Assembly: GCA_947632355.1 (NCBI GenBank)
Contig: CANROY010000005.1
Span: 1-37,743 of the forward strand
Source: an uncultured Bacilli bacterium
GTDB lineage: Bacteria > Bacillota_I > Bacilli_A > RF39 > UBA660
Direction of reading: 5' to 3'
Length of the DNA: 37,743 bases
This document shows, piece by piece, positions 1-3,411 of this stretch. How positions within the stretch are numbered: position 1 is the first letter of the stretch; every line of letters starts with the position of its first letter. The position numbers and the translations under genes are program-made. The notes under the pieces were generated by a model. That model did no database searches. It had not been told where the DNA came from and saw only the letters and a list, made by a program, of their open reading frames with translations.

Positions 1-26
1 AAATTAAAAACCTCAGAAACCCTTAT

Positions 27-58
27 AAAACAAAAAGCGTTCCCTCTCTCGAGGGAAC
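27..58 (-). terminator. Intrinsic terminator of sRNA1
   Basis: GTTCCCTC/GAGGGAAC 8-bp stem with TCTC/GAGA loop, followed on the minus strand by GCTTTTTGTTTT. Confidence 0.8.
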
Positions 59-140
59 TTCAGGGGGTTTTGGTTGATACATTCTCACATTTATAAATCG
101 TAAGAATGTTTGAAAGGTTAGCATGATATTGTATCATGCT
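27..140 (-). ncRNA. Candidate ~110-nt small RNA with C-rich unpaired linker (sRNA1)
   Basis: Minus strand: TTGACA (170-175) - 17 nt - TATTAT (147-152). Predicted start is at ~140, at the base of the perfect hairpin AGCATGATA-CAA-TATCATGCT (120-140). A second hairpin ACATTCTTAC/GTGAGAATGT (79-109) has a U-G pair that is valid only on the minus strand. Then the unpaired linker ATCAACCAAAACCCCCTGAA (59-78) and terminator GTTCCCTC-GAGA-GAGGGAAC + GCTTTTTGTTTT. No ORF. Confidence 0.75.
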
Positions 141-146
141 ATTTAA

Positions 147-175
147 ATAATATAATGAATTTTTCTCTTTGTCAA
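147..175 (-). promoter_or_regulatory. Sigma-A-type promoter for sRNA1
   Basis: TTGACA-N17-TATTAT on the minus strand, in the gap downstream of the DUF975 gene. Confidence 0.75.
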
Positions 176-218
176 ACAATTTCGTTTTATCCGACAAAAA
201 AAGTGTTAATTTGTCATT

Positions 219-848
219 TTATTCATTCTCTTTTTTCTTTTTTAATTCATCATAATAAAGTGTTTCTGCAATACTTATATAAGGAATAGTATATATAAAT
301 CCAATTCCTAATGTAAGAACAGAAAGGAATCCCCAACCAATAAAACTTAAAATAAATACAAAATAATCCATCTTATAACCATCCATTAGTTTTTTACTTT
401 CACTTAAATACTCCATTGGGCTTTTGCTTTCCCCTTCGGTGTGTAGATCTGCATATAAATAGAAAACCATAGAATATCCAATCGCTGCAATAATACCAGG
501 AATCACTAATAGTAAACTCCATAGCATAATAATGATTCCCATGATAAGCGTAATGGCTGCAATCGGTAAAACATTTTTAACAAATCTAAAAATATCTTCT
601 CTACTATACTCTTCCTTACGTACTAACTTTAAAGTATATAAAGTAAATCCAACACTTAAAGTTGATAAAAAGAAAGATAAAACGAAATTAAGTGCTGCAT
701 ATAGCATACTTTCAGGGTTTGCTACAAGACCTAATACTAAGGAGCATAAAAAGGAAATCGCAAGTATAATTAAATACCCTTTCCAAAATCCTTTAAAGTT
801 TTCTTTTAAAATTGCTTTTGCTTTTTCTTTAATCTCCACTCTATCCAT
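219..848 (-). CDS. DUF975 family integral membrane protein
   Basis: 209-aa ORF with multiple hydrophobic helices; start MDRVEIKEKAKAILKENFKGFWKGYLI is typical of DUF975 proteins. Confidence 0.75.
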   Translation of the reverse strand: MDRVEIKEKAKAILKENFKGFWKGYLIILAISFLCSLVLGLVANPESMLYAALNFVLSFFLSTLSVGFTLYTLKLVRKEEYSREDIFRFVKNVLPIAAITLIMGIIIMLWSLLLVIPGIIAAIGYSMVFYLYADLHTEGESKSPMEYLSESKKLMDGYKMDYFVFILSFIGWGFLSVLTLGIGFIYTIPYISIAETLYYDELKKKKENE

Positions 849-891
849 ACAATATACCTCCTCTAAAACTATTATATTTTAAAACAAAAAA

Positions 892-2886
892 TTAATCAAT
901 ATGACTTACACTTTTTAAAATCGTTTGGTATTTTTCTTCTAAATTGGTTGTGCTCTTTAAAAAAATTTTACTATCTTCTTTAGCATATAATAGTATTTTA
1001 AAATCGTGCTTTAAATCCGCAATTTTAAAGACCATATCGCCACTTTGTCGTGTACCAAATAAGTCTCCTTCTCGACGCATTAAAAAATCTTGTTCACTAA
1101 TATAGAAGCCATCATTACTTTCCTCTAGTACTTTTAATCGTTCTTTATCATAGTCACTAATTAAAAAGCAAGTGGATTCTAAATCGTTTCTTCCAACACG
1201 TCCTCTTAATTGGTGAAGAGTAGCAAGTCCAAACATTTCAGCGTTAAAAATAACAATGGTAGTAGCATTTTTAACATCAACACCAACTTCAATTACCGTA
1301 GTAGCAATGAGTATCTTTGTTTCTCCCGATTGAAAACGATCCATGATTTCTTCTTTTTCTTTAGATTTTATTTTTCCGTGTAGAACTTCAATCTTTACTT
1401 TATGTTGAAAAGCCGTATCAAAACTTTCTTTTAGATTATTCACATCGTGTAAGTTTCGTTCTTCTTGCTCTAATATAGAAGGAGCAACCACATAGATTTG
1501 ATGTCCCATTTTTATTTCTTTTAAAATATGTTCTAACACACCTTTTAATTCACTTTCTTTTTTAACATACGTTTTAATTTCTTTACGACCACTTGGTTTT
1601 GTTTTAATTAAGGATGTGTCCATGTCTTGATAAATGGTTAAAGCATACGTTCTTGGAATTGGAGTTGCACTCATATAAATGGTATCGGGAAGTATTCCTT
1701 TATTTTGTAAATTTCCTCGTTGATTGACACCAAAACGATGTTGTTCGTCGGTGATAACTAACCCTAAGTTTTTAAACGCAACCTCTTCACTAATTAAAGC
1801 ATGAGTTCCAATTAGAATATCGATTTCTCCATTTCTTAGTTTTTCTAAAATTTCCTTGTGTTCTTTTTTCTTTAGACTCCCTGTTAATAAGGATACACGT
1901 ATGCCAAAATCTTTTACTAAATTGTTAATTGTTTCATAATGTTGTTTGGCTAAAATCTCTGTTGGAGCCATCAAAGCACTTTGATACCCACTAAAGGTAT
2001 TGGCAACCATCGTAATCGTTGCTACAATGGTTTTTCCACTTCCCACGTCTCCTTCTATTAAACGATTCATTCTTTTTTCACTTTTTAAATCTTTTAAACA
2101 ATCTTGAACAGCAGTGGCTTGATCAGGCGTAAGTTCAAATGGAAGAGAGGATAAGAACTGTTCTAGTTTTTCTTCCTCATAGTTTTTTGCAACACCTTTT
2201 ATTTTTTCATTTCGATTCTTTAGATAATTAATTTTTAACATAAAAATAAAGAATTCTTCATAGATACTTCTTAACCTTGCTTGTTTTAATGTGTTTTTAG
2301 AATGTGGTTGATGCATTTCCAATATAGAAGTTCTTTTATCTAGAAAATGATATTTTTCTTGTAAAAAAGTAGGAATGTAATCACAAACTGTTTCTTTTAA
2401 GGGAAGAGCATTCATAATAAATTGATGTAGTTGCGTATTTTTAAGACCTTTGATTGTATGATATACCGCTTCTATTTTCGTTTCAGTTAGCCAATTTAAT
2501 TTAATTTCAACTGCTACAAAAGTATTTTTCTTTTTATCGTATTTTCCTACTAAACAAACTTCTTTACCAATATCTAAATTCTTATATAAAAACGTACGAT
2601 TGAATAAAACAACATTAATTAATAAATTATTAGCTAAAGCTTTAAAGGATAAACGTTTAAAATTACGTCTGATATAAAAGATTCTCGGTGTTGATTCTAT
2701 TGTAGCATTAATAACAATAGTTTCTTGTTCATCAACATTTTCATTTAATGCAAGAGGGTTATAGACATTATAACGATAAGGATAATAAGTAATTAAATCT
2801 TCTACCGTAAAAATATTAAGTTTATTTAAACGCTCAATTGATTTTGTACCAATTCCTTTAATATCTTGCAATTCCATTTTGATCAC
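892..2886 (-). CDS. recG: ATP-dependent DNA helicase RecG
   Basis: Full-length ORF with OB/wedge region, Walker A (LIEGDVGSGKTIVA), DEQHRFGVNQR, SATPIPRT and QLRGRVGR motifs. Confidence 0.97.
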   Translation of the reverse strand: MIKMELQDIKGIGTKSIERLNKLNIFTVEDLITYYPYRYNVYNPLALNENVDEQETIVINATIESTPRIFYIRRNFKRLSFKALANNLLINVVLFNRTFLYKNLDIGKEVCLVGKYDKKKNTFVAVEIKLNWLTETKIEAVYHTIKGLKNTQLHQFIMNALPLKETVCDYIPTFLQEKYHFLDKRTSILEMHQPHSKNTLKQARLRSIYEEFFIFMLKINYLKNRNEKIKGVAKNYEEEKLEQFLSSLPFELTPDQATAVQDCLKDLKSEKRMNRLIEGDVGSGKTIVATITMVANTFSGYQSALMAPTEILAKQHYETINNLVKDFGIRVSLLTGSLKKKEHKEILEKLRNGEIDILIGTHALISEEVAFKNLGLVITDEQHRFGVNQRGNLQNKGILPDTIYMSATPIPRTYALTIYQDMDTSLIKTKPSGRKEIKTYVKKESELKGVLEHILKEIKMGHQIYVVAPSILEQEERNLHDVNNLKESFDTAFQHKVKIEVLHGKIKSKEKEEIMDRFQSGETKILIATTVIEVGVDVKNATTIVIFNAEMFGLATLHQLRGRVGRNDLESTCFLISDYDKERLKVLEESNDGFYISEQDFLMRREGDLFGTRQSGDMVFKIADLKHDFKILLYAKEDSKIFLKSTTNLEEKYQTILKSVSHID

Positions 2887-2904
2887 CTAACTCTAGTTAA
2901 TTTT

Positions 2905-2933
2905 ATTATACTAAAAAAGTGAACAAATGTACA
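2905..2933 (-). promoter_or_regulatory. Putative recG promoter
   Basis: Minus strand TGTACA-N17-TATAAT upstream of recG. Confidence 0.5.
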
Positions 2934-2999
2934 GTTTTCTAAAAATTTTGTCTTTTTTTGACGCAAATTGATAAGTTTCTTCTAGTTTTGTCGAATCGC

Positions 3000-3027
3000 T
3001 TGCAAATGGAAAGAATCCCATTATAAT
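3000..3027 (+). promoter_or_regulatory. Promoter for candidate sRNA2
   Basis: TTGCAA (3000-3005) - 16 nt - TATAAT (3022-3027), plus strand. Confidence 0.65.
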
Positions 3028-3032
3028 AGAGA

Positions 3033-3224
3033 CTCGTGTTGTTGGAAAAGGAATAGATTTCCTACAAACAAATATATTTCACAGGGGGTTTTTGGTTGAA
3101 ATATATTCCCGTTTTAAAATTTTTTCCTTGGTGAATCTATTCCTCCAATAGCACATTCTATTTCTATTTCATAATAATCTTTTTTCTATTTTAAAAGAAA
3201 TGCAAAAAAAATTGCATTTTTTTT
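3033..3224 (+). ncRNA. Candidate ~190-nt structured RNA with G-rich apical loop (sRNA2)
   Basis: Nested stems 3036-3045/3145-3154 (GUGUUGUUGG/CCAAUAGCAC, two G-U pairs valid only on plus), 3050-3059/3134-3143 (GGAATAGATT/AATCTATTCC, perfect) and 3071-3081/3097-3107 (AATATATTTCA/TGAAATATATT, perfect) enclosing loop CAGGGGGUUUUUGGU. Consensus-like promoter upstream and U-tailed hairpin at 3198-3224. No ORF. Confidence 0.7.
3198..3224 (+). terminator. Intrinsic terminator of sRNA2
   Basis: AAATGCAA-AAAAAA-TTGCATTT followed by TTTTT. Confidence 0.55.
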
Positions 3225-3234
3225 AAAAAAAGTG

Positions 3235-3263
3235 TTGACAAATTTCTAACTTTCGATTAGGAT
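3235..3263 (+). promoter_or_regulatory. Promoter for candidate sRNA3
   Basis: TTGACA (3235-3240) - 17 nt - TAGGAT (3258-3263). Confidence 0.6.
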
Positions 3264-3269
3264 ATAAAT

Positions 3270-3411
3270 CACCAATTCACTAAGAAGCGAATTGGTGCTA
3301 GTATCACACTAGTCAACCCCTTTTTATTCTTTTAGGATGGCAGTCTTCAGGGGGCTGTCATCCAATGTGGGAACTTTAAAAGCATTCGTTATTCGACGAA
3401 TGCTTTTTCTT
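3270..3411 (+). ncRNA. Candidate ~140-nt small RNA with G-rich loop (sRNA3)
   Basis: Perfect hairpin CACCAATTC/GAATTGGTG (3270-3297), CTAGT/ACTAG (3298-3312), linker TCAACCCCTTTTT, hairpin GGATGGCAG/CTGTCATCC (3335-3363; G-U pair valid only on plus) with loop UCUUCAGGGGG, then terminator. No ORF. Confidence 0.68.
3381..3409 (+). terminator. Intrinsic terminator of sRNA3, overlapping the 3' end of the PFOR gene
   Basis: AGCATTCGT-TATTCG-ACGAATGCT followed by TTTTCTTT on plus; may also act on the minus-strand PFOR transcript. Confidence 0.7.

Follow-up and report, generated by a model that had tools for sequence, protein, structure and literature searches.

Near one end of a 37,743-nucleotide stretch of DNA from an uncultured Bacilli bacterium of the order RF39 (family UBA660; assembly GCA_947632355.1, contig CANROY010000005.1, positions 1 to 37,743; hereafter the window) lie three small RNA (sRNA) loci, of which the first, sRNA1, is probably a trans-acting silencer of dispersed toxin-type genes, the second, sRNA2, its likely decoy, and the third, sRNA3, a possible sponge. 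In the proposed mechanism, sRNA1 is encoded once, beside recG, and would act in trans as an antisense RNA whose unpaired linker pairs through UCAACCAAAACCCCC with GGGGGUUUUGGUU(GA) in the leaders of membrane-peptide and Rpn genes. Another unpaired part of sRNA1, CUAACCUUUC, would in the window's genus pair in matching antiparallel order with the GAAAGG Shine-Dalgarno (SD) region, and because this pairing lies over the SD region ribosome loading would be blocked. sRNA2 would titrate sRNA1 as a decoy or sponge, and sRNA3, an independent neighbor, may do the same through its G-rich terminator loop.

Targets of sRNA1 were sought by pattern searches, and their list is incomplete. The linker complement GGGGGUUUUGGUUGA recurs in 5′ leaders, directly upstream of the SD sequence, in three genera and far above the control. 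Across the order a genome normally has a single copy of the 13-mer linker complement, on the strand opposite sRNA1 itself, and only some genomes have several (seven copies in G000, four each in G003 and G017, three in G004 and seven in G372), against about 0.05 per genome for the reversed pattern. In the window's genus, GGGGGUUUUGGUU is found repeatedly, with varied flanks, in leaders immediately 5′ of an SD sequence and ATG, and the genes behind these sites encode single-helix peptides of 28-29 amino acids (e.g., MTKESLHVLVVFLLVVIVMLFVIILRLT) and Rpn nucleases, a family of reported toxin-antitoxin and anti-phage proteins (PMC10327210). The Rpn assignment comes from the NCBIfam model TIGR01784 (E 3.9e-19); Pfam at 1e-3 gave the protein no name. 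In the genera of G372 and G333 the same 13-mer stands 5′ of other small hydrophobic open reading frames (ORFs). A bipartite search for GGGGTTTT..GAAAGG..ATG returned 40 rows in 12 of 25 genomes, some of them overlapping and three being sRNA1's own antisense strand, vs one row for the reversed control. GAAAGG, the complement of the second unpaired sRNA1 stretch in the window's genus, is present in 13 of 15 complete leaders, counting only leaders not retrieved by a GAAAGG pattern, vs none of 30 window genes, and the two stretches follow one another in sRNA1 and in the mRNAs in a way that fits antiparallel pairing. sRNA1 has, in all, an unpaired, conserved seed whose complements lie near SD sequences above control, which supports the proposal of the sequence-only reading of this window that a C-rich sRNA1 pairs with G-rich partners close to SD sequences. 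That reading had looked for the partners next door; the neighboring RNAs are indeed complementary to sRNA1, but its main predicted partners are leaders of toxin-type genes elsewhere. Most target genes and sRNA2 also have in common a promoter type, TTGTCGAANNNCTTG-TATAAT, found at 45 places vs two in the reversed control. Viral contigs carrying the site are chance matches within coding DNA.

Several further observations concern these genes and their promoters. The Rpn genes (L112, L113, L149, L118, L119, L131, L141, L195, L206) are multicopy in the window's genus with a common leader and promoter; several stand at contig ends, and they may be mobile. The promoters of toxin-type genes and of sRNA2 (window about 2966-3002; L112-L116, L127, L138, L491-L496) contain directly repeated elements spaced 10 bp apart, TTTTGTCTAG TTTTGTCGAA (elsewhere, in other genera, TGTCGAANNN TGACGAA), which suggest a common transcription regulator. 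The same promoter type occurs at five loci without an evident small ORF or sRNA1 site (L140 at G000:C1:26930, L136 at G003:C38, L143 at G013:C30, L161 at G017:C12 and L145 at G019:C109), several of them with a GUGUUAC..GUAACAC-type hairpin. Outside toxin leaders, another genus carries a repeated element (L122, L130; G022:C8, C27) composed of CAGGGGGTTTTGTTCCC followed by AAAAAAGCGTC.

The peptide genes resemble type I toxin genes. Their ORFs encode 28-29 amino acids in G000, G004, G005 and G019 and 25-38 in G333 and G372, the peptides of this type spanning 25-40 residues overall, and the peptides are hydrophobic, with one membrane helix, and preceded by an SD sequence. Differences among copies fall 122/44/149 by codon position, a pattern consistent with coding; no peptide matched a Pfam or NCBIfam family. 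Minimum free energy folds of the peptide mRNAs examined contain a 5′-3′ closing helix and hence long-distance closure. At both loci scanned for it (L114 and L138) a convergent TTGCTA-17-TATAAT promoter lies at the toxin 3′ end, with a terminator called in L114, an arrangement that would suit a Firmicute-type cis-antisense RNA. On these features the peptides are presumably toxic.

sRNA1 itself is an order-wide gene. The sequence-only reading had called for a covariance-model search of related genomes, and this search recovers sRNA1 from 311 of the order's 386 genomes and from 103 of its 119 genera, almost always as a single copy (the window's own match spans 26-158 on the minus strand, E 1.6e-22). 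Across 40 diverse sequences, two-sided changes occur at 15 of the 16 stem pairs, and the linker is invariant among relatives. Exact matches to UCAACCAAAACCCCCUGA in named genomes run to at least 120 stretches, and all but about two of those listed are the same kind of gene; they come from metagenome-assembled genomes of uncultured gut and rumen Bacilli, Mycoplasma, Tenericutes and Erysipelotrichaceae and follow one plan, with a promoter, a variable hairpin, a second hairpin around UUACGA, the invariant linker and an intrinsic terminator. With its own promoter, terminator and conserved structure, sRNA1 has the features of a trans-acting base-pairing sRNA. Rfam gave no match above the gathering threshold for the window RNAs or at 12 other loci, and relaxed thresholds yielded nothing credible. 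sRNA1 and sRNA3 are both conserved in the window's genus and in three further genera of its family, and wherever both were located (36 of 36 loci) they lie 2-5.5 kb apart on opposite strands, normally as neighbors of recG, which in the window lies between them; this spacing and layout are constant across the order. On this conservation and structure we regard both as genuine, ordered RNA genes; transcription of all three loci is presumed.

The three loci with complementary C-rich and G-rich segments described by the sequence-only reading agree with the window in position, strand and sequence, and they are borne out by promoters or terminators, by folds more stable than dinucleotide shuffles and by duplex energies (Table 1). 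The motif CAGGGGG, of which that reading saw no other copy on the plus strand, occurs just three times in the window on both strands together, always on the plus strand and once per RNA locus, where shuffling predicts 0.5. The opposed strand of sRNA1 relative to sRNA2 and sRNA3 recurs in the relatives examined, and the motifs are therefore complementary as RNAs rather than merely shared.

Table 1. Features of the sRNA region of the window.
Feature	Position	Strand	Basis or remark
sRNA1 terminator tail and end of integrated mobile element (..TTTTGTTTTATAAGGGTTTCTGAGGTTTTTAATTT)	1..38	-	recurs in unrelated genera
sRNA1	27..140	-	two hairpins, C-rich linker, intrinsic terminator; fold z -6.1; predicted order-wide trans-acting antisense RNA
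sRNA1 terminator stem	58-39	-	consensus match
Attachment core CCCCCTGAAG plus terminator hairpin, for tyrosine-integrase elements	39..67	-	direct repeats and mosaic ends in relatives
sRNA1 seed 2, linker AUCAACCAAAACCCCCUGAA	59..78	-	complement of toxin-leader sites and sRNA2; its CCCCCUGAAG complement of sRNA3 loop
sRNA1 seed 1, CUAACCUUUCA	111..121	-	genus-specific; complement of GAAAGG SD region of targets
sRNA1 promoter, TTGACA-17-TATTAT, sigma-70-like	147..175	-	consensus match; conserved in relatives
recG	892..2886	-	between sRNA1 and sRNA3; Pfam RecG domains
sRNA2 promoter, toxin-regulon type, TTTTGTCGAATCGCTTG ... TATAAT	2988..3027	+	promoter comparison
sRNA2	3033..3224	+	fold z -5.5; ORF-less, 5′-3′ closing helix, sRNA1 site in apical loop
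Predicted sRNA1-binding site in sRNA2, CAGGGGGUUUUUGGUUGA (CAGGGGGTTTTTGGTTGA)	3082-3099	+	duplex energy
sRNA3 promoter, TTGACA-17-TAGGAT	3235..3263	+	consensus match; conserved
sRNA3	3268..3411	+	fold z -6.9; core exact in relatives
sRNA3 loop UUCAGGGGG (CTTCAGGGGG at 3345-3354)	3346..3354	+	complement of sRNA1 CCCCCUGAA
sRNA3 terminator	3378-3407	+	consensus match

Several points weigh against trans-silencing as the role of sRNA1. Targets are sporadic and sRNA1 is near-universal, and because the RNA is so much more widespread than the toxin leaders it must have another main duty. Copies of the leaders within a genus are paralogues, so that the leader counts are not independent. G017 has many targets and no detectable sRNA1, possibly owing to an assembly gap. 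Finally, the mRNA sites sit within predicted leader hairpins, which bears on their accessibility. This last point, together with the closed form of the full-length toxin RNAs, would suit the opposite direction of regulation, in which sRNA1 opens leader hairpins and so activates its targets by exposing an otherwise hidden SD sequence; we consider such activation improbable, given that the second stretch of complementarity includes the SD sequence itself in the window's genus. Repression of the targets by sRNA1 is the direction that we infer.

For sRNA2, the argument starts from its composition: it combines the promoter, closing helix and sRNA1 site of the toxin class with the lack of any SD sequence or ORF, and for this reason it most likely serves sRNA1 as a decoy or sponge, unless it is a toxin gene on the way to becoming one by decay. 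The linker-sRNA2 duplex reaches -30.8 kcal/mol, which none of 300 shuffles equalled and which exceeds the best of 1500 random window stretches (-25.5). With the full-length RNAs, the gain on cofolding sRNA1 and sRNA2 does not exceed that for shuffled partners, since each RNA has a strong fold of its own, and pairing stands out at the level of the linker only. ORF-less RNAs occupy the syntenic place beside sRNA3 in G004 and G007, where they were found via position and promoter and not via the site, and their duplexes with the linker reach -28.4 (0 of 1000 shuffles) and -14.6 kcal/mol (2 of 1000), respectively. These syntenic, ORF-less and site-bearing RNAs are the best evidence for a decoy. The cofolding result counts against this role, as do the weaker site of G007 and the RNA at the same place in G010, a hairpin without an sRNA1 site. 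sRNA2 is fast-evolving and restricted to the genus, in contrast to the order-wide sRNA1 and sRNA3. It could instead be what is left of a type I toxin locus after loss of the ORF and the cis-antisense promoter, with the sRNA1 site retained as a relic and no sponge function, an explanation to which we give somewhat less than an even chance. Each part of a toxin leader that sRNA2 retains would fit such decay, and so would the further ORF-less loci with a promoter and hairpin and no site (G000:C1:26930, G013:C30 and G010). Against it, an ORF-less RNA is kept at this place in three species, the recognizable common segment is the sRNA1 complement, and its duplexes at the three loci are equalled by 0, 0 and 2 of 1000 shuffles, respectively.

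sRNA3 is the near-universal companion of sRNA1, and its 23-nt core CACTAGNCAACCCCTTTTTATTC occurs without a mismatch in 325 of 386 genomes and 106 of 119 genera. It is composed of a hairpin CCAAUUC/GAAUUGG, a hairpin CUAGUAUCACACUAG, the invariant CAACCCCUUUUUAUUCUU, a G-loop hairpin and the terminator. The linker-sRNA3 duplex amounts to -21.8 kcal/mol (2 of 300 shuffles). All 47 genera compared have the terminal hairpin, on freely varying stems, and its loop reads CAGGGGG in 36 of them; AGGGG is kept in two others and UUGGGGG in one, and the G-run is lost in eight. Two observations limit the case for sRNA3 as a titrator of sRNA1: the latter keeps CCCCCUG where the sRNA3 loop is lost, and the expected co-variation of linker and loop did not appear, both being near-invariant and their flanking bases without covariation. 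An apparent compensatory pair in G022 (CCCCCUGAG with CUCAGGGGG) was dropped, as CUCAGGGGG loops mostly stand opposite CCCCCUGAA. Given these flanking bases, pairing of the two RNAs is compatible with the alignments and not demonstrated by them, and sponging by sRNA3 is possible. The earlier proposal that both neighbors could sponge sRNA1 holds up in so far as sRNA2 is an ORF-less RNA with a site, and sequestration by sRNA3 is the part left unproven. A second match claimed there between sRNA3 GGGAACUU (3369-3376) and sRNA1 AAGUUCCC was rejected as incidental, since it falls in the unconserved sRNA1 terminator, which relatives replace with unrelated sequence.

An internal explanation of the G-loop comes close to an even chance, namely that it pairs with sRNA3's own CAACCCCUU as a pseudoknot and complements sRNA1 by coincidence. 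In 39 of 40 sRNA3 sequences RNAalifold predicts pairing of CCCCUU with AGGGGG, and the core CAACCCCUUUUU is invariant, its 12-nt complement occurring once or twice per genome, essentially in the sRNA3 genes themselves, so that this search for targets of the core found none elsewhere. Pairing with sRNA1 accounts better for the conserved loop, of which CCCCCUG of sRNA1 matches seven of seven bases and the internal ACCCCU reaches AGGGG only (five of seven); moreover, genera without the loop still keep CAACCCC. Second copies of the core with other 3′ hairpins (L027 in G003:C32, L029 in G009:C15, L030 in G008:C3 and L028 in G023:C20) indicate sRNA3 paralogues in some genomes.

The 3′ end of sRNA1 (window 1-67, minus strand) has a second property: judging from the junctions in relatives, it is clearly an attachment site for integrase islands and defense-gene cassettes. 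The sequence at 1..38 of the window also adjoins sRNA1 genes of unrelated genera (L308, L339, L502); the window's contig ends at the element end, and many sRNA1 genes lie less than 100 nt from a contig start. Terminators and downstream sequence are common to distant genomes, with 39 pairs of loci more than 93% identical on the right and less than 70% on the left. Tandem 9-mers of the kind found at integrase arm sites lie downstream in 32 of 84 sRNA1 loci vs none after shuffling, tyrosine integrases (PF00589) begin 100-200 nt past the seed in several loci, and second direct copies of CCCCCTGAAG with the terminator hairpin follow 0.2-3.3 kb downstream, including exact direct repeats of 33-34 nt at L300 and L316. 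Junctions at this site combine an integrase gene, a directly repeated core and mosaic ends. Of the genes that lie between the repeats or past them, most match defense families: DUF1016/PDC-S02 (YhcG), Fic, DNA methyltransferases, a GmrSD-type restriction enzyme and AbiEii/AbiE. Islands or cassette arrays at L300, L316, L301, L257, L318, L328, L305 and L249, delimited by these repeats, have an integron-like layout.

It might be argued from this site that selection retains sRNA1 for integration or as an unrelated housekeeping RNA, and that recombination there produced the leader matches. This is very unlikely: the leader matches span UCAACCAAAACCCCC, with varied bases at the TGAAG place, and not the attachment core, CCCCCTGAAG plus terminator, and hence are not integration scars; each leader has a promoter of its own before the site, and the sRNA1 stems covary. 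A broader proposal, which we regard as unlikely although less so, joins both properties of trans-silencing sRNA1: one order-wide sRNA would be the silencer of many dispersed toxin and defense genes (membrane toxins and Rpn nucleases) and the docking site of integrase islands and defense-gene cassettes, with sRNA2 and sRNA3 titrating the silencer. An element that integrated without rebuilding the sRNA1 3′ end would then unleash the toxins, which would in this way guard the site.

Two RNA genes without an Rfam family are conserved in uncultured gut bacteria of over 100 genera. If sRNA1 works as proposed, several unrelated toxin families are under the trans control of one chromosomal antisense RNA, in contrast to the usual layout of one antitoxin per toxin, and sRNA1, the leaders and sRNA2 form a concrete, testable sRNA-target-decoy network in a clade without genetics; as the same gene is an entry point for defense islands, RNA control of toxins would be tied to mobile-element traffic.

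Among known systems, the Firmicute type I modules bsrG/SR4, txpA/RatA and C. difficile CD2517.1/RCd8 are alike in their small membrane peptide and, as far as the loci examined here go, in a predicted convergent 3′ antisense promoter. Reviewed type I toxins have 28-60 amino acids and often a convergent overlapping antitoxin gene (PMC6563280, PMC8167048), and AapA1 has a 5′-3′ closing helix like the peptide mRNAs described here (PMC8167048). Unlike in these modules, an additional RNA from one distant, conserved locus faces the start regions of many toxin copies, including Rpn, and the peptides have no Pfam or NCBIfam family. Trans-acting type I antitoxins include E. coli IstR-1 and OhsC, paired with TisB and ShoB, respectively. 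SprA2AS of S. aureus likewise acts in trans (PMC6393315). In such pairs antisense pairing in the leader represses the small toxin mRNA, as predicted for sRNA1, but they serve one toxin or close paralogues, whereas the order-wide sRNA1 faces several unrelated toxin families. The tmRNA (transfer-messenger RNA) gene ssrA is used as an attachment site by genomic islands (PMC3146451), and at both ssrA and sRNA1 integrase elements insert into the end of the RNA gene (3′) and bring along a substitute for it; unlike ssrA, sRNA1 is a putative regulatory sRNA with toxins as its predicted targets. sRNA2 resembles sRNA sponges and decoys in bearing a target site on an ORF-less structured RNA, through which it would titrate sRNA1. 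The C-rich sRNAs of Firmicutes comprise RsaE/RoxS, LhrC and the csRNAs. sRNA1 shares with them an unpaired C-rich stretch complementary to G-rich leaders near the SD sequence, and differs from them in having no Rfam match and in its 13-15-nt complementarity to toxin leaders.

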